A stretch of 64,000 nt of DNA from Silvanigrella paludirubra (lineage in GTDB: Bacteria; Bdellovibrionota_B; Oligoflexia; Silvanigrellales; Silvanigrellaceae). Location: assembly GCF_009208775.1 (NCBI RefSeq), contig NZ_WFLM01000002.1:496001-560000 (forward strand), written 5' to 3'. How positions within the stretch are numbered: the first letter of the stretch is position 1; each line of letters starts with the position of its first letter. The position numbers and the translations under genes are program-made. Below are positions 51,421 to 60,334 of this stretch, one piece after another. The notes below the pieces were generated by a model that saw nothing but the letters and a program-made list of their open reading frames with translations, did no database searches and was not told where the DNA came from.

Positions 51421-51909
51421 ATGAGTTTTAAAACAATAAAGGTATTATTGATTATTTTTTCTTTTAGTTTAATTAATATAAAAATATATTCTCAGGAAAA
51501 ATTCACAAAAAAAGATGTTGAACTATTTGTTCAAAAAGCTGTTGATTATGTAAAAAAAAATGGGAAAGATGCTGCTTTAAAAGAATTTATAAACCCAAAA
51601 GGTGAATTTTTAAAAGGTAAAAATGGCATTCTATATATATATGCATATGACTTTAAAGGGATTGTATTAGCTCATGGTGGTAAACCCAAATTAGCTGGAT
51701 TTAACCTGCTTGACATCAAAGATATTGAAGGAAATTATCCTGTACAAATCATGATAAAAGCAGCAAAAAATAACCAAAATCATTGGGCTTCCTATACTTG
51801 GACAAATCCTGCTACCAAAAAGGTAGAAAGAAAAATAGGATATAGTGTTTCCGTTGACAATACATGGTGGCTTGGCTCTGGTTTATACGAGAGCGAGGAA
51901 AATAAATGA
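51421..51909 (+). CDS. Secreted single-Cache-domain protein (second of tandem pair)
   Basis: 162 residues, a clear duplicate of the upstream gene: DVELFVQKAVDYVKKNGKD, YAYDFKGIVLAHGGKPKL, WTNPATKKVERKIGYS, WWLGSGLY. By eye well over half the residues of the domain are identical. It has a signal peptide (cleavage near IYS/QE). The frame opens at a TTG at 51409, but GGGG and spacing favour the ATG at 51421. Its stop overlaps the start of the SBP gene by four bases, so the three genes are translationally linked. Confidence 0.72.
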   Translation: MSFKTIKVLLIIFSFSLINIKIYSQEKFTKKDVELFVQKAVDYVKKNGKDAALKEFINPKGEFLKGKNGILYIYAYDFKGIVLAHGGKPKLAGFNLLDIKDIEGNYPVQIMIKAAKNNQNHWASYTWTNPATKKVERKIGYSVSVDNTWWLGSGLYESEENK

Positions 51910-52661
51910 TATTTTTTCAAAATAAAAAAAAAATTGTAATTATATTTTATTTTTTAAATTTGTTAATTTTAAATAACAAATGTTTTGGAGAAAATTTAAC
52001 AGTAAATCTTACTACATCTACATGGTCTCCCTATACTCTAGAAGAACTTCCAGATAATGGTTTACTTGGAGCATTAATAAAAGCAGCTTTTAAAACACAA
52101 AAAATTGAAACTAATATTATTTTTTTACCTTCAGCCCGTGCACCATTAGAAGCAAAAAAAGAAGCTTATGACGGTTATTTTCCTTCATATGATTGTGATA
52201 GGAATAGCTTCCAAAAATCTTCTTCAATTGGAAAGAGCACTATGGGTTTTGCTGTGTTAAAACAAAAAAACTGGGATTGGAAAAAATTAACAGATTTAAA
52301 AGGAAAAGTTATTGGAAACGTACGAGATAGATTTTTTACAGAAGAATTTAAAAAACTAAGCGAAAAAAACATTATCTTATTAGAAGAATCAAATACTGAC
52401 TTAGTGAATTTAACAAAGCTTTTGCATGGAAGAATAGATATTTCAATTATAGAAAAAAATATTTTTGAATATTTAATCTCAATTACTCCAGAGTTCAAAG
52501 ATAAATTTAAATTTGAAACCAAATATATAAAAAACAGAGATTTGTATATTTGCTTTAATAAATCTAACAAATCAAAAAATTTTAGAAATAAATTCAATTT
52601 AGGAATTTCTAAAATTGATAAAGATAATATTATTTTTCAATATATTATGCTCAATTACTAA
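51906..52661 (+). CDS. Periplasmic SBP_bac_3-type binding protein (orphan)
   Basis: 251 residues with a signal peptide (cleavage near CFG/EN) and a bi-lobed type-II periplasmic fold: WSPYTLEELPDNGLLGALI, YDGYFPSYDCDRN, LTDLKGKVIGNVRDRFFTEEF. No lipobox. It is coupled by a four-base overlap to the two Cache genes. No permease or ATPase is adjacent, so it may serve as a sensor subunit or work with a distant transporter. Ligand unknown. Confidence 0.75.
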   Translation: MIFFQNKKKIVIIFYFLNLLILNNKCFGENLTVNLTTSTWSPYTLEELPDNGLLGALIKAAFKTQKIETNIIFLPSARAPLEAKKEAYDGYFPSYDCDRNSFQKSSSIGKSTMGFAVLKQKNWDWKKLTDLKGKVIGNVRDRFFTEEFKKLSEKNIILLEESNTDLVNLTKLLHGRIDISIIEKNIFEYLISITPEFKDKFKFETKYIKNRDLYICFNKSNKSKNFRNKFNLGISKIDKDNIIFQYIMLNY

Positions 52662-55154: not shown

Positions 55155-55976
55155 TTAATCTATTCTTAAAGATCGAGGAAAAATATCATAATCATCATCA
55201 TACAATGGATTTCCTGATAATCCTAGTTCAAAGAGATTTCTTAAATCTTTTAAACTTTTAACATTCCGAATTCTATTCTTTCTTAGGTCAAGTTTTGTTA
55301 AATTATTTAAATACTGAATAGGCTCAATTTCAGAGATTTGATTATCCGCTAAAGATAAAACAGATAACATTTTAGCTTTAGCAAGAGGTTCAATACTGTC
55401 TAATAAATTTTTATTGGCAGTTAATTTTTTTAACAATATATTTTCTTTTAGAGGATTTATATCTGATATGTCATTTTCAGAAATATTTAATTCTTCTAAT
55501 AAAGACAATTTTGAAATTTCATGTATTTTCCGTATTTTATTCTTTTTTAAAGACAATGTAACAAGCTCTTTAAAACAATCTAAGCCTTCTAATGAGATGA
55601 ATTGATTTTCATCTAAATTAAGATCTTTTAATTTAATAAAATGTAAAATATTTTGAAAATTTGAAAGTTGATGACCTTTCATAGAAAGTTTATTTAATGA
55701 ATTAAATGAAGACAAATCGTTCCCATCAGAAATCATTTGATAATCTAAGTTTAAATTTTCAATCTGAGGAATAAATTTAAAAAAAGAAGAATCAAGCACA
55801 ATTTTTTTAGCTTCAGGAAAAGAACTTAAATCGAGCGATTTTGCCTGGCTTAAAAATTTCTCTGCTTCTTGAGGAATTTTTGTTTTAAAAATTCGATAAA
55901 TTGTTTTTTTGCTAAATTCATGTTCTGGTGAAATAGAATCTATGCTTAAATAATTTAAGAGACTTTCGAATCTCAT
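55155..55976 (-). CDS. Leucine-rich-repeat protein
   Basis: 273 residues without a signal peptide. From about residue 70 on it is built of short LRRs of about 21-22 residues (for example LKDLNLDENQFISLEGLDC, LVTLSLKKNKIRKIHEI, LEELNISENDISDINPL, LTKLDLRKNRIRNVKSL), an SDS22-like array. The N-terminal 65 residues are unrelated and helical. It lies between the MFS pump and an amino-acid binding protein. A protein-binding role, possibly regulatory or directed at another organism, is plausible only by analogy with other LRR proteins. Confidence 0.82.
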   Translation of the reverse strand: MRFESLLNYLSIDSISPEHEFSKKTIYRIFKTKIPQEAEKFLSQAKSLDLSSFPEAKKIVLDSSFFKFIPQIENLNLDYQMISDGNDLSSFNSLNKLSMKGHQLSNFQNILHFIKLKDLNLDENQFISLEGLDCFKELVTLSLKKNKIRKIHEISKLSLLEELNISENDISDINPLKENILLKKLTANKNLLDSIEPLAKAKMLSVLSLADNQISEIEPIQYLNNLTKLDLRKNRIRNVKSLKDLRNLFELGLSGNPLYDDDYDIFPRSLRID

Positions 55977-56000: not shown

Positions 56001-56786
56001 TTAATTAAAATAATTCTTTTTTATAGAGTCATATTGTCCGTTTTTTTTCAATTTATCAAGAAAATCATTAAATTTTTCAATGAGCTGTATGTCTTTTTTA
56101 CGAACCGCCATAGCTAAATCACCTTTTTCATTGGAAAGAAGGGTATAGAAATCTATTTTCATTTCTTTAGATGCTTGCGCTATAAAAACATTATCTTCAA
56201 CAAATACATTTGTTCTTTTTTGTACAACAGCATTTACTTCATCACTTTCTGTATCAAATTGTAAATGGTTTGCATTTTTTAATATTGATTTCAAATAAAG
56301 AGTTGCAGCACTTCCTGTGTGAGTGGCAATTTTTGTTCCTTTAGAATCAATGTCTGAAAATGTTTTATATTTAGAACGATTTTCAGGTGTATCTAAAAGA
56401 GCAGCCGTCACAATTACGGTAAAAACAGGTTTAGAAAAGAGTACTGCTTTTTTTCTTTCTTCGGTGATAGTAAGCCCCGATGCAATCATATCACATTTAC
56501 CTGTCATTAAAGCAGGAATTAAACCATCTAATGTAGTATCTATTAATTGTAATTTAATGGAATTTTGTTTTGCAAACTCAGTCATAATATCGACGTCAAA
56601 ACCCTTCCAGTTCCCTTTATTATCTTTCATTTCAAAAGGAATAAAACCCGCTTGAGAACAAACTTTTAAAGTTCCTAGTTTTTGGACTCTTTCAAAGCTA
56701 TTATCACCTGATTTATTTTGTGAATAAATTGGTAAATTTAGGTTTATCAAAAGGATCATGATAGTAAACGAAAATAATTTTTTCAT
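56001..56786 (-). CDS. ABC-type amino-acid-binding periplasmic protein (SBP_bac_3)
   Basis: 261 residues with a signal peptide and the polar-amino-acid binding fold: LKVCSQAGFIPFEMKDNKGN near the mature N-terminus, FDVDIMTEFAKQ, GLIPALMTGKCDMIASGLTI, SKPVFTVIVTA. The frame opens at an ATG at 56804 (MWRVLF), but that ATG lies just before the GGAGAG box for the ATG at 56786, so the latter is used. No permease or ATPase is adjacent. Upstream is a putative histidine-rich short ORF and a long imperfect hairpin that could regulate it. Confidence 0.82.
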   Translation of the reverse strand: MKKLFSFTIMILLINLNLPIYSQNKSGDNSFERVQKLGTLKVCSQAGFIPFEMKDNKGNWKGFDVDIMTEFAKQNSIKLQLIDTTLDGLIPALMTGKCDMIASGLTITEERKKAVLFSKPVFTVIVTAALLDTPENRSKYKTFSDIDSKGTKIATHTGSAATLYLKSILKNANHLQFDTESDEVNAVVQKRTNVFVEDNVFIAQASKEMKIDFYTLLSNEKGDLAMAVRKKDIQLIEKFNDFLDKLKKNGQYDSIKKNYFN

Positions 56787-56844
56787 AAATAAGACTCTCC
56801 ACATAGTAAATAAGCAAGTAATTATTGAAGAAAATTCATTTCAC

Positions 56845-56902
56845 ACACTAAGTCATAACTTATAAATATAATTAAGTTATTTATTAATAAGACTTTTAGT
56901 GT
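56845..56902 (-). promoter_or_regulatory. Imperfect hairpin in the leader of the amino-acid-binding protein gene
   Basis: ATAACTTA (56855-56862) pairs exactly with TAAGTTAT (56873-56880) over a 10-base loop. Immediately outside, ACACTAAGTC (56845-56854) pairs with GACTTTTAGTGT (56891-56902), with a two-base bulge and a ten-base unpaired segment. It ends about 58 bases before the start of the binding protein gene. It has no adjacent T run, so it is not a standard terminator; a leader element or protein-binding site is possible. Confidence 0.35.
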
Positions 56903-56945
56903 AAAATTACAATTTTTTTTTAATAAAACAGAAAAAAAGAAATTT

Positions 56946-57062
56946 TAATGATGAGTATGATGATGGAAGGAATGATGAGATAGGGAGGATTTTTGGGTTT
57001 TTAAGCTAATTTTTTTTTCAGAAAAACAGTTAGTTAACGAAAAACGCAATGAATAATCCATT
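56946..57062 (-). CDS. Putative 38-residue histidine-rich peptide (leader peptide?)
   Basis: On the minus strand an ATG at 57062 opens a 38-codon frame ending at TAA (56948-56946). AAGG lies about nine bases upstream. The last ten codons read HHSFHHHTHH, seven His of ten. The peptide begins MDYSLRFSLTNCFSEKK. It lies between the divergent threonine aldolase gene and the amino-acid-binding protein gene, in the same orientation as the latter. A short upstream ORF with clustered His codons is the hallmark of an attenuation leader such as HisL; a small metal-binding peptide is the other option. The repeated CAT codons alone could be chance, so coding status is uncertain. Confidence 0.3.
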
Positions 57063-57188
57063 TCTACACCCTTTAAAAGAGTTTGCTTTAGATGGTATCT
57101 ATGTTTAAATACATTGAACCATGAGCAAGCCTACCAAACATAGCGTTATTTTGGCAAGCCGTATTTTTTAAATTTAATAGGATTTTAT

Positions 57189-58256
57189 ATGCAAGACCCT
57201 AAAATTATTCAATTTGCTAGCGACAATTATGTTGGTGCGCATCCAGAAATAGCTAAAATTATTATGGAATCTATGCAAACAACAGAGCTACCATACGGAA
57301 ATGATACCTACTCTAAAAAAGCCAATTTAGAATTCAAAAAAATATTTCAATCCGATTGTGAAACATTTTTTGTAGGGACAGGGACAAGTTCAAATATAAT
57401 CGCTTTAAAAACAATTCTAAAAAGTTACGAATGCGTAATATGTGCTGATATTGCCCATATTAATGGGGCAGAATGTGGAGCCTTTGAAAACTTTACGGGA
57501 GCGAAAATATTTCCCGTTAAATCTACGAATGGAAAAATGAACTTAGATTCCATTAAAGAAGTTTATTATTCGTTTCAAGACTCGCATTACAATAAGCCAA
57601 AAGCTATCTCTTTAACCCAATCTACCGAACTAGGAACTGTTTATACTTGCGAAGAAATTAAAGAAATTTGTGATTTTGCTCATGAAAATAAACTGTATGT
57701 TCATATGGACGGAGCACGTATTGCCAATGCGGCTGCTTATTTAAAAAAATCGTTTAAAGAAATGACGGTAGATGCGGGTGTTGATATCTTATCATTTGGA
57801 GCCACAAAAAATGGTGCCTTACTAGCCGAATCTGTTGTCATTTTTAATAAAAAATTAGTAGAAGATTTTGGATATATTCAAAAACAATCCATGCAGTTAT
57901 TTTCTAAAATGCGCATGATTCCTGCTCAGTTTATCGCCTATTTCCAAAATGATTTATGGTTATCAAATGCTCAAAATGCGAATAAAATGGCAAAAGAAAT
58001 TGAAACGGGTTTTTTAGACTGCAAATATATAAAAATAATAAATCAAGTTCAAACAAATCAAATTTTTATTCAGTTGCCTATTGCTTTAAAAAATGAAATT
58101 TTTAAAAGTTACCATTTTTATACTTTCTCTGAAAATTTAAAAGATCAAACTTGTACAATTCGTTTAGTTACCTCATTTAATACCTCTTTAATTGAAGTTC
58201 AAAAACTCATTTCTGATTTCAAATCTGCAGAGTATAATTTCAGTTTATTAGCATAA
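57189..58256 (+). CDS. Low-specificity threonine aldolase (LtaE family)
   Basis: PLP-dependent aldolase that splits threonine to glycine and acetaldehyde. 355 residues, family length. FASDNYVGAHPEIAKIIMES at the N-terminus, ELPYGNDTYS, VHMDGARIANAAA (Asp174 to the pyridine nitrogen) and the PLP lysine Lys207 in SFGATKNGALLAE are visible. Other members of the beta-eliminating lyase group would look similar at this level. It is divergent from the binding protein gene and upstream of the GAF kinase. Confidence 0.85.
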   Translation: MQDPKIIQFASDNYVGAHPEIAKIIMESMQTTELPYGNDTYSKKANLEFKKIFQSDCETFFVGTGTSSNIIALKTILKSYECVICADIAHINGAECGAFENFTGAKIFPVKSTNGKMNLDSIKEVYYSFQDSHYNKPKAISLTQSTELGTVYTCEEIKEICDFAHENKLYVHMDGARIANAAAYLKKSFKEMTVDAGVDILSFGATKNGALLAESVVIFNKKLVEDFGYIQKQSMQLFSKMRMIPAQFIAYFQNDLWLSNAQNANKMAKEIETGFLDCKYIKIINQVQTNQIFIQLPIALKNEIFKSYHFYTFSENLKDQTCTIRLVTSFNTSLIEVQKLISDFKSAEYNFSLLA

Positions 58257-58334: not shown

Positions 58335-59552
58335 ATGCTAAAAGCTCCTATAAAAGAAAACGAAGAAGAACGTCTCAAAGCACTAAAAGATTATAATGTA
58401 CTAGATACTCCTCCCGATATTGATCTCGATGAAATCACATTAATCGCGTCTTATATATGCAAAACACCTATTGCATTAATTAGTTTAATTGACACAAATA
58501 GACAGTGGTTTAAATCTAAACAAGGTTTAAGCGCAGAAGAAACACCAAGAGAAGTTTCTTTTTGTGGCCACGCCATATACCAAGATGATATCTTTATTAT
58601 TGAAAATGCACTAAATGACGATCGCTTTAAAGACAACCCCTTAGTTATAAATAAACCGAATGTTACCTTTTATGCAGGCTCTCCTTTAATTACTCCCTCT
58701 GGTCATAAAATAGGAACTTTATGTGTTATTGATTCAAAACCTAGTAAATTAGATGAACAACAAAAACTCATTTTAAAAGCATTATCAAATCAAGTCATAA
58801 AACTATTTGAGCTTCGCAAACAAAACCAGAAAATTATAGATAATCAAAAAGCTTTTATTCATAATTCTAAAATGATTTCATTAGGAGAAATGGCTTCAGG
58901 AGTTGCTCATGAAATTAATAATCCTCTCATGATTATTAATGGAAAAATACAATTATTATCAGAATCATTTTCAGAAAATGAAGAAATAAATAAAACCGAG
59001 ATCATAAATGATCTCAATATCATTTTAAATGCTTCAAATCGCATTGCAAAAGTAGTAAAAAGCCTTCGCCATTTTTCAAAAAATTCAGAGTATGAAAAAA
59101 AAGAAAAAGTTTCTTTTTTAAAAATTTTAGAGGACACTCTGTTACTCTGTGAAGAAAAAATTAAAAAGAAAGGTATTGAAATAAAATATGATCATTCATA
59201 TAGAATGAATGATATGTTTATAAATTGCAAACCAACGTTATTTAGCCAAGCTATTTTAAATTTAATCATGAATGCTTATGAATCTTTAGAAAAATCCGAT
59301 AAAAAAATTATAGAAATTAAAATTAAAAATGAAGCGAAATATGTTAAAATATCTATTCTCGATTCGGGGCCTGGAATTCCAAGTGAAATTCAAGATAAAA
59401 TCATGGAACCCTTTTTTACTACAAAGGAAGTAGGAGCTAGTTCAGGATTGGGATTAAGTACTTCTAAAGGAATAATTGAAGAACATAACGGTAAGTTTTA
59501 TTTAGATAAAAACAGTAAAAATACTTGTTTTGTTATTGAATTACCTCATTAA
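58335..59552 (+). CDS. GAF-domain sensor histidine kinase (cytoplasmic)
   Basis: 405 residues, no membrane helix. A GAF domain spans about residues 25-160 (NVLDTPPDIDLDEITLIAS, TNRQWFKSKQGL, SFCGHAIYQDD), followed by HisKA with His192 in GVAHEINNPLMIINGK, N-box LNLIMNAYESL and G-box GASSGLGLSTSKGI. No receiver or response regulator gene is adjacent. The stop overlaps the stop of the convergent SBP gene: the four bases TTAA at 59549-59552 supply both stop codons. A hairpin covers its ribosome binding site. Confidence 0.87.
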   Translation: MLKAPIKENEEERLKALKDYNVLDTPPDIDLDEITLIASYICKTPIALISLIDTNRQWFKSKQGLSAEETPREVSFCGHAIYQDDIFIIENALNDDRFKDNPLVINKPNVTFYAGSPLITPSGHKIGTLCVIDSKPSKLDEQQKLILKALSNQVIKLFELRKQNQKIIDNQKAFIHNSKMISLGEMASGVAHEINNPLMIINGKIQLLSESFSENEEINKTEIINDLNIILNASNRIAKVVKSLRHFSKNSEYEKKEKVSFLKILEDTLLLCEEKIKKKGIEIKYDHSYRMNDMFINCKPTLFSQAILNLIMNAYESLEKSDKKIIEIKIKNEAKYVKISILDSGPGIPSEIQDKIMEPFFTTKEVGASSGLGLSTSKGIIEEHNGKFYLDKNSKNTCFVIELPH

Positions 59553-60334
59553 TTTTTATTTAAAGTATCTTCAATATTATATTTTTTGAGTATCAAAGAG
59601 TACTGACCATTTTTTATTATTTTTGCTAAACCTAAATCAAATAAATCTTTATGTTTTTTATATTTAAAATAAGCTCTATATGGTTTATTATTTAAATAAA
59701 TAGAGCATTTAATTTTGTCGCTTTTAATTTTAATATCTGGGAACATTTTAATAAATTCTTTAATTTTATAATTTAAAATATAAATATCAGATACAATTGC
59801 ATTAATTCTCCCCAATAAAAGCTGACTCGTTTGAGTTAAGGGATTATTAATTTCTCGATAACTGCTATTTAATGAAACAGCGTCATTATATTTTTTTCCC
59901 AAATATAATTTAGCTCCCTGAAATGCAATAATAGAAGATTTTGATAAATCATCCATATTTTTAATTGAATTATTTTCTTCTAAAGTATTCACACAGTCAT
60001 GAAATATAATATAATTATTCGAAAACTTATTTTGATCAGCTTTTTTATAGATATTTCTTGATGCTCCATCGATCTGAGGATCTTTATCAAGATCTTCTGC
60101 TAATTTAGTAATAGGAACATAAATAAATTTAACAAGATAACCTTGAGTTTTAAACGCTTCACGAATGATTTCTACACTAGCTCCAGAATCGGACTCTGGT
60201 ATAGCATAAGGAGGCAGGCTGTCACCTTCATAAAGTACAATTTTATTTTCGGCATAAATAGAATTACAGGATAAATTAAGTAACAACATAAAAATAAACT
60301 TATATATCTTATTTTTACAATTAAAATAAGTCAT
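59549..60334 (-). CDS. Periplasmic SBP_bac_3-type binding protein (orphan)
   Basis: 261 residues with a signal peptide (cleavage near IYA/EN) and a bi-lobed binding fold: YEGDSLPPYAIPESDSGASV, VEIIREAFKTQGYLVKF, QTSQLLLGRINAIVSDIY. It is weakly similar to the SBP at 51906. No transporter genes are adjacent. Its neighbour is the GAF kinase (convergent) and rlmM lies upstream. Ligand unknown. Confidence 0.72.
   Translation of the reverse strand: MTYFNCKNKIYKFIFMLLLNLSCNSIYAENKIVLYEGDSLPPYAIPESDSGASVEIIREAFKTQGYLVKFIYVPITKLAEDLDKDPQIDGASRNIYKKADQNKFSNNYIIFHDCVNTLEENNSIKNMDDLSKSSIIAFQGAKLYLGKKYNDAVSLNSSYREINNPLTQTSQLLLGRINAIVSDIYILNYKIKEFIKMFPDIKIKSDKIKCSIYLNNKPYRAYFKYKKHKDLFDLGLAKIIKNGQYSLILKKYNIEDTLNKN

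Follow-up and report, generated by a model that had tools for sequence, protein, structure and literature searches.

Conserved terminal histidine codons in a leader ORF suggest a histidine-sensing leader peptide upstream of an amino-acid-binding protein gene in Silvanigrellaceae

In Firmicutes, His-leader attenuators are found upstream of his operons, of hisS/hisZ and of hisZ*YX transporter genes (PMC9413887, PMC2965389), and the His leaders proposed to precede histidine transporter genes in some members of the phylum come with hairpin structures (PMC9413887). Other leader ORFs, namely tnaC, mgtL and speF orf34, act through Rho (PMC5021804, PMC6386406), and CruR provides an example of metal sensing by a uORF that works through Rho (PMC9426467). 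Leader-peptide attenuators are mostly discovered by their terminator/antiterminator hairpins, hence hairpin-based screens would miss the leader described here, where a strongly conserved codon sensor is present without structures of that kind. It lies upstream of an SBP_bac_3-type amino-acid-binding protein gene (SBP) of Silvanigrella paludirubra, within the 64,000-nucleotide stretch of DNA that was analysed (the window). Searches of open-access literature found no account of such a leader for Bdellovibrio relatives or Silvanigrellaceae.

Similar to enterobacterial hisL and its attenuator (RF00514), the locus contains a short ORF bearing a Shine-Dalgarno (SD) sequence and a run of His codons, on the same strand as, and upstream of, a gene of possible relevance to histidine. 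Unlike hisL, it lacks a terminator/antiterminator and an Rfam match, the ORF is longer (36-39 codons) and places its His run right at the C-terminus, and the gene that follows encodes a binding protein rather than biosynthesis enzymes. The Firmicutes leaders share with it the His leader peptide and, in some lineages, the position before a histidine transporter, but they carry hairpin/terminator structures and belong to another phylum, the likeness being drawn from layout. With tnaC, mgtL and speF orf34 it shares a proposed logic, whereby Rho is kept away by a ribosome that occupies the leader ORF; in contrast, the signals in those systems are free Trp, Pro and Arg/ornithine, while a role for Rho at the SBP leader is a proposal. 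In terms of class, the SBP leader is one that works like a histidine leader peptide, outside both the hairpin-terminator family of his attenuators and RF00514. The range of histidine leader peptides would thereby come to include a probable transport gene, in Silvanigrellaceae that for the most part lack histidine biosynthesis.

The leader ORF occupies positions 56945-57061 on the minus strand, with the ATG at 57061 and the stop codon (56945-56947) inside that span, and its 38 codons encode MDYSLRFSLTNCFSEKKISLKTQKSSLSHHSFHHHTHH. Seven of the final ten residues are His, and these last ten codons (HHSFHHHTHH, 56948-56977) form the proposed sensor of charged tRNA-His. The ORF had been picked out in a sequence-only reading of the window and proved real, with the coordinates corrected by one position and the AAGG placed 8 nt 5' of the ATG. 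No other of the window's 1488 short ORFs (10-60 aa) exceeds four His over its C-terminal ten positions. Furthermore, when each of seven leaders was dinucleotide-shuffled 1500 times, only 0 or 1 of the shuffles per leader yielded an ORF of 25-50 codons whose ten terminal residues included four or more His. A run of nine A at ~57010-57018 inside the ORF (codons EKK) is a possible slippage site and is absent from the ORFs of other species.

We compared eight genomes of the genus, from G000 (the window genome) to G007. In seven of these, all except G001, the SBP_bac_3 gene is found at a syntenic locus, flanked by a threonine-aldolase-like gene and a leucine-rich repeat (LRR) protein gene. The sequence-only reading had proposed a check on whether the short ORF and its His codons are conserved upstream of orthologous binding protein genes, and this was passed at all seven syntenic loci. 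All of them carry, at a matching position, an ORF of 36-39 codons that shares the SD block and has a His-rich C-terminus containing 4-7 His in the final ten residues. In addition to that of the window, the tails read HHSYHHHHHQ (two species), AHHSSHH, IHHSFHH, HYHHHRSHH and HYHHRSHH, and the frame is intact across the seven loci despite indels. At the level of sequence, the comparison demonstrates a leader ORF with conserved terminal His codons, bearing in mind that the leaders represent only about four independent lineages. The tails of leaders L006 (G007) and L007 (G004) differ by one His codon, hence the His run gains or loses codons. In these same two leaders, the ORF would be longer if translation began at another in-frame ATG, 27 nt further 5' (MQTLLYGDE...).

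Conservation is distributed unevenly along the leader. Between distant species, the last ten codons are 61-85% identical at the DNA level, compared to 50-54% for the N-terminal codons and 50-58% for the spacer between leader ORF and SBP, where the shuffled background is 49-51%. Identity is 55-73% over the promoter and 5' UTR, and 63-67% over the initial 300 nt of the SBP gene. The leader peptide as a whole is 25-44% identical, against 60-76% for the adjoining SBP, and across the orthologous leaders the conservation of the His codons exceeds that of the remaining peptide. Lengths vary little among the seven leaders for the ORF, the spacer (119-158 nt) and the 5' UTR (about 61-63 nt, assuming transcription starts 7 nt past the -10). 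Judged from these alignments, what selection has kept is the ribosome-binding site, the reading frame and the terminal His codons, and neither the peptide sequence nor a downstream hairpin. In G001 (72% complete), a 53% identical SBP is present without the leader ORF, but it has other gene neighbours. None of 20 scanned upstream regions of paralogous SBP genes contains a similar leader, and a genome scan for CAYCAY-N6-CAYCAY returned too many matches to be useful.

Upstream of the ORF, three further elements recur in the leaders. A promoter-like pair on the minus strand consists of TTGCCA (57152-57157) and TAGGCT (57128-57133) separated by 18 nt, with TTGCCA and the TAG invariant and identically spaced in 7/7 leaders. 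A sigma-70 scan did not pick up this pair at 57128-57157, and its role as a promoter is putative. It shares sequence with the upstream region of the divergent aldolase gene, and the conservation may serve both genes. The putative 5' end of the leader mRNA forms a stem-loop (57092-57122, minus strand), which folds in every leader (z -1.5 to -2.6) with different paired letters: AUGGU/ACCAU, GGUAAU/AUUACC, GGUUUG/CAAAUC, UUUGUG/CACAAA and UUGGU..CUUUAU/AUAAAG..ACCAA. The third element is a 17-nt block, GCAAACTCTTTTAAAGG, at 57070-57086 on the minus strand, which contains the SD of the leader ORF and is 74-94% identical between distant species. Exact matches to it occur once each in G000, G002, G003, G004, G006 and G007, all at the SBP leader locus, and twice in G005, one of them at this locus; G001 has none. 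The block is kept well beyond its SD part, including AAACTCTTTT. A wider regulon based on the block was considered and rejected, inexact matches being about as common as those of a reversed-pattern control. The retention of promoter, 5' stem-loop, ribosome-binding block and His tail, while the N-terminal codons and the spacer lie near background, is more in keeping with a leader peptide that senses codons than with a metal-binding micro-protein.

The SBP gene (56001-56786, minus strand) encodes 261 aa and matches PF00497 (E 9.9e-36), with orthologues 60-76% identical; an alternative in-frame ATG is located at 56804. The LRR protein gene (55155-55976, minus strand; PF12799/PF13855) starts 24 nt downstream and is syntenic and 55-61% identical in six other species, so that it lies directly 3' of SBP in 7/7 syntenic genomes. 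The two genes probably share one transcript, an uncommon pairing for a binding protein and an LRR protein. The divergent gene (57189-58256, plus strand; PF01212) encodes a threonine-aldolase-like PLP enzyme that occupies the same place in 7/7 loci and served as synteny anchor. No permease gene adjoins SBP. Two more ORFs of the window (51906-52661 and 59549-60334) resemble periplasmic amino-acid-binding proteins, as judged by eye.

The ligand was approached by aligning SBP with the HisJ and LAO sequences from PDB entries and comparing pocket residues. SBP reaches none of the curated subfamily cut-offs, scoring 63.6 bits for the HisJ family NF011965 against a cut-off of 459. Ser69, Arg77, Gly119 and Asp161 of the HisJ pocket are kept, several of which we take to hold the amino-acid backbone in HisJ/LAO. 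Position 52 is mostly Leu, otherwise Met, in SBP, Leu in HisJ and Phe in LAO, while ten paralogues in the window genome have Phe, Trp, Ile or Ser. SBP departs from the HisJ pocket at Asp11 (Gln) and Leu117 (His). The HisJ-like Leu52 thus suggests histidine as a plausible ligand.

The genomic context gives histidine uptake added weight. Both hisG and hisD were found in only one of the eight genus genomes, G002, and neither was found in the window genome (98% complete). The genomes other than G002 probably belong to histidine auxotrophs, to which uptake that responds to histidine would be of use, and with the two genes found in just one member of the genus, histidine uptake should matter. A TrpE-type anthranilate synthase (PF04715) was likewise not found in the eight genomes, and together with the restriction of hisG and hisD to a single genome this makes the genus members look like multiple amino-acid auxotrophs. 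A trp leader had been considered as added support for leader peptides in the genus and was set aside, there being no trpE-type gene found to carry one.

On this evidence, we consider it probable that the leader ORF encodes a leader peptide through which the SBP-LRR transcription unit senses histidine, whichever output mechanism it uses. The locus combines a short ORF, its ribosome-binding site and clustered His codons, the features that define a His leader peptide upstream of a histidine-related gene; for SBP the link to histidine is a suggested one. The proposal further assumes that the ORF is translated, that histidine is the signal and that the response has the sign described next. When charged tRNA-His is plentiful, the ribosome would read through the His tail and exit at the stop codon; under histidine shortage, it would stall on the terminal His codons of the ORF. 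The stalled ribosome would raise expression of the downstream amino-acid-binding protein, favouring histidine scavenging in bacteria that are mostly unable to make histidine. We infer with fair confidence that the ORF is translated and that the ribosome stalls when charged tRNA-His is short, and with lower confidence that the stall keeps Rho off.

A role for Rho is suggested by the base composition around the end of the leader ORF. A C-rich, nearly G-free stretch (56931-57005, minus strand) covers this region and is a proposed Rho-loading (rut-like) site; the excess of C over G is 23 in 75 nt, and 75-nt stretches with an excess of at least 22 make up 0.012% of the window on either strand. The final 60 nt of the ORF and the 15 nt beyond contain no G at all. 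Ten Cs in this stretch precede the first His codon, hence the bias of C over G is only partly due to the His codons themselves. In the other leaders the excess is 10-20, with G005 the lowest at about the 5% level, and these values are to be read in the knowledge that Rho sites cannot be predicted reliably. The features expected of a Rho attenuator, a C-rich, G-poor and unstructured stretch over the stall region together with a rho gene, are thus both present, the former being weak in G005. With the textbook hairpin switch missing, the output step would have to differ, and the C-rich, G-poor ORF end leads us to favour ribosome stalling that blocks Rho. Part of the Rho-loading site would consist of the His codons (CAU/CAC, which contain C but no G) that close the ORF; the site would be exposed once the ribosome leaves the stop codon and covered during a stall. 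A ribosome starved of charged tRNA-His would itself hide the site, so no alternative RNA hairpins would be needed. Taken by itself, the Rho step as the output is a reasonable candidate to which we give rather less than even weight, and a histidine attenuator that depends on Rho and uses one set of bases as both sensor and terminator signal is a tentative proposal.

An alternative output is control of translation or mRNA stability, in which the stalled ribosome alters mRNA structure or RNase access and increases use of the SBP start site without transcription termination. This reading draws on the same sensor evidence as the leader peptide, such leaders are known (speF orf34 and attenuators that sequester the ribosome-binding site), and the 5' stem-loop is conserved. 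A conserved CUCUUUU block was considered as a partner of the SBP Shine-Dalgarno and rejected as a general feature, as it pairs better than shuffles in G005 and G006, but at chance level in the other five leaders. Moreover, the spacer and ribosome-binding region are no more structured than shuffles and show hardly any conservation of sequence. We therefore regard this output as possible but doubtful.

That the ORF encodes a small His-rich, metal-binding protein acting on its own, an alternative raised in the sequence-only reading, is disfavoured and appears unlikely. The His-rich tail is kept at the residue level and the start and SD resemble those of real genes, but conservation is lacking ahead of the tail, where the DNA is near shuffle level, while SBP itself is well conserved. 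Furthermore, the peptide has no Pfam match and its His tail would sit within the exit tunnel.

The layout and the His tail also suggested ribosome-mediated attenuation of the classical kind, which employs alternative hairpins and an intrinsic terminator in the style of the enterobacterial his operon, and a true-looking case does exist upstream of hisG in G002. As for the his-operon-type layout seen in the sequence-only reading, the leader ORF with conserved His codons stands in 7/7 loci, but no terminator, antiterminator, His:spacer pairing or conserved hairpin accompanies it. The long imperfect hairpin described between the ORF and SBP (about 56846-56902, minus strand, AT-rich) can be constructed and is part of the centroid fold, but it is neither terminator-like nor conserved, and it lies in a spacer that folds no better than shuffles and whose identity between distant species is near background. 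Spacer folding gives z -0.46 in the window and -0.46 to +1.31 across the seven species, and the whole window leader folds like shuffled sequence (z 0.03). No terminator-like site was found in the window leader; the best hairpins before a T-run reach -0.5 to -6.8 kcal/mol, within the range of shuffles in all seven leaders, whereas the same search recovers the terminator of the G002 his leader at -12.6 kcal/mol. By duplex energies, 9-52% of shuffled spacers pair with the His-codon segment as well as the real spacer does, no antiterminator was found in any of the seven SBP leaders, and the leader matches no Rfam model, the RF00514 His_leader covariance model included. The classical terminator/antiterminator was rejected after this search, and we consider such a mechanism at the SBP leader very improbable.

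Equally improbable is a nascent peptide that senses metal and controls a transporter in the manner of the copper-responsive uORF CruR (PMC9426467). The His-rich uORF 5' of an uptake gene and the CruR precedent speak for it. Against it, the His tail is synthesised last, at a point where it would still be within the exit tunnel, and is followed by no conserved arrest motif; moreover, amino acids are what the SBP family takes, and a conserved CXXC motif is lacking.

The his operon of G002 provides a structured counterpart to the proposed histidine-sensing SBP leader within the same genus. Its hisG (L110:4177) is preceded by a leader, MNYRHHHFSHHHPQPLEDHRF, and a complete-looking histidine attenuator spans L110:3846-4030 (G002 C1 about 469845-470030). 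The terminator, CCCTGTTGTGTCTTCTGCACCAACGGGGCTTTTTTTT (-12.6 kcal/mol), competes with a fold of -14.4 kcal/mol in which GGAAGA behind the His codons pairs with UCUUC inside the terminator. The hisG leader (L110:3890-4030) resembles the SBP leader in its HHHFSHHH tail, akin to HHSFHHH, and in a TTGACA/TAGTCT promoter-like pair, but differs in its GC-rich intrinsic terminator and antiterminator, in the gene it precedes and in a peptide that runs on past the His codons. We read it as a putative textbook His leader-terminator attenuator, separate from the SBP leader, and its existence indicates that His leaders occur in this genus. The hisG loci of other members of the class show no such His leader, it being found in G002 only, which makes lateral gain possible, and the operon may have been acquired in this way. 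The gene order of the G002 his operon is unusual and includes fused genes, with hisA and hisIE in one frame.
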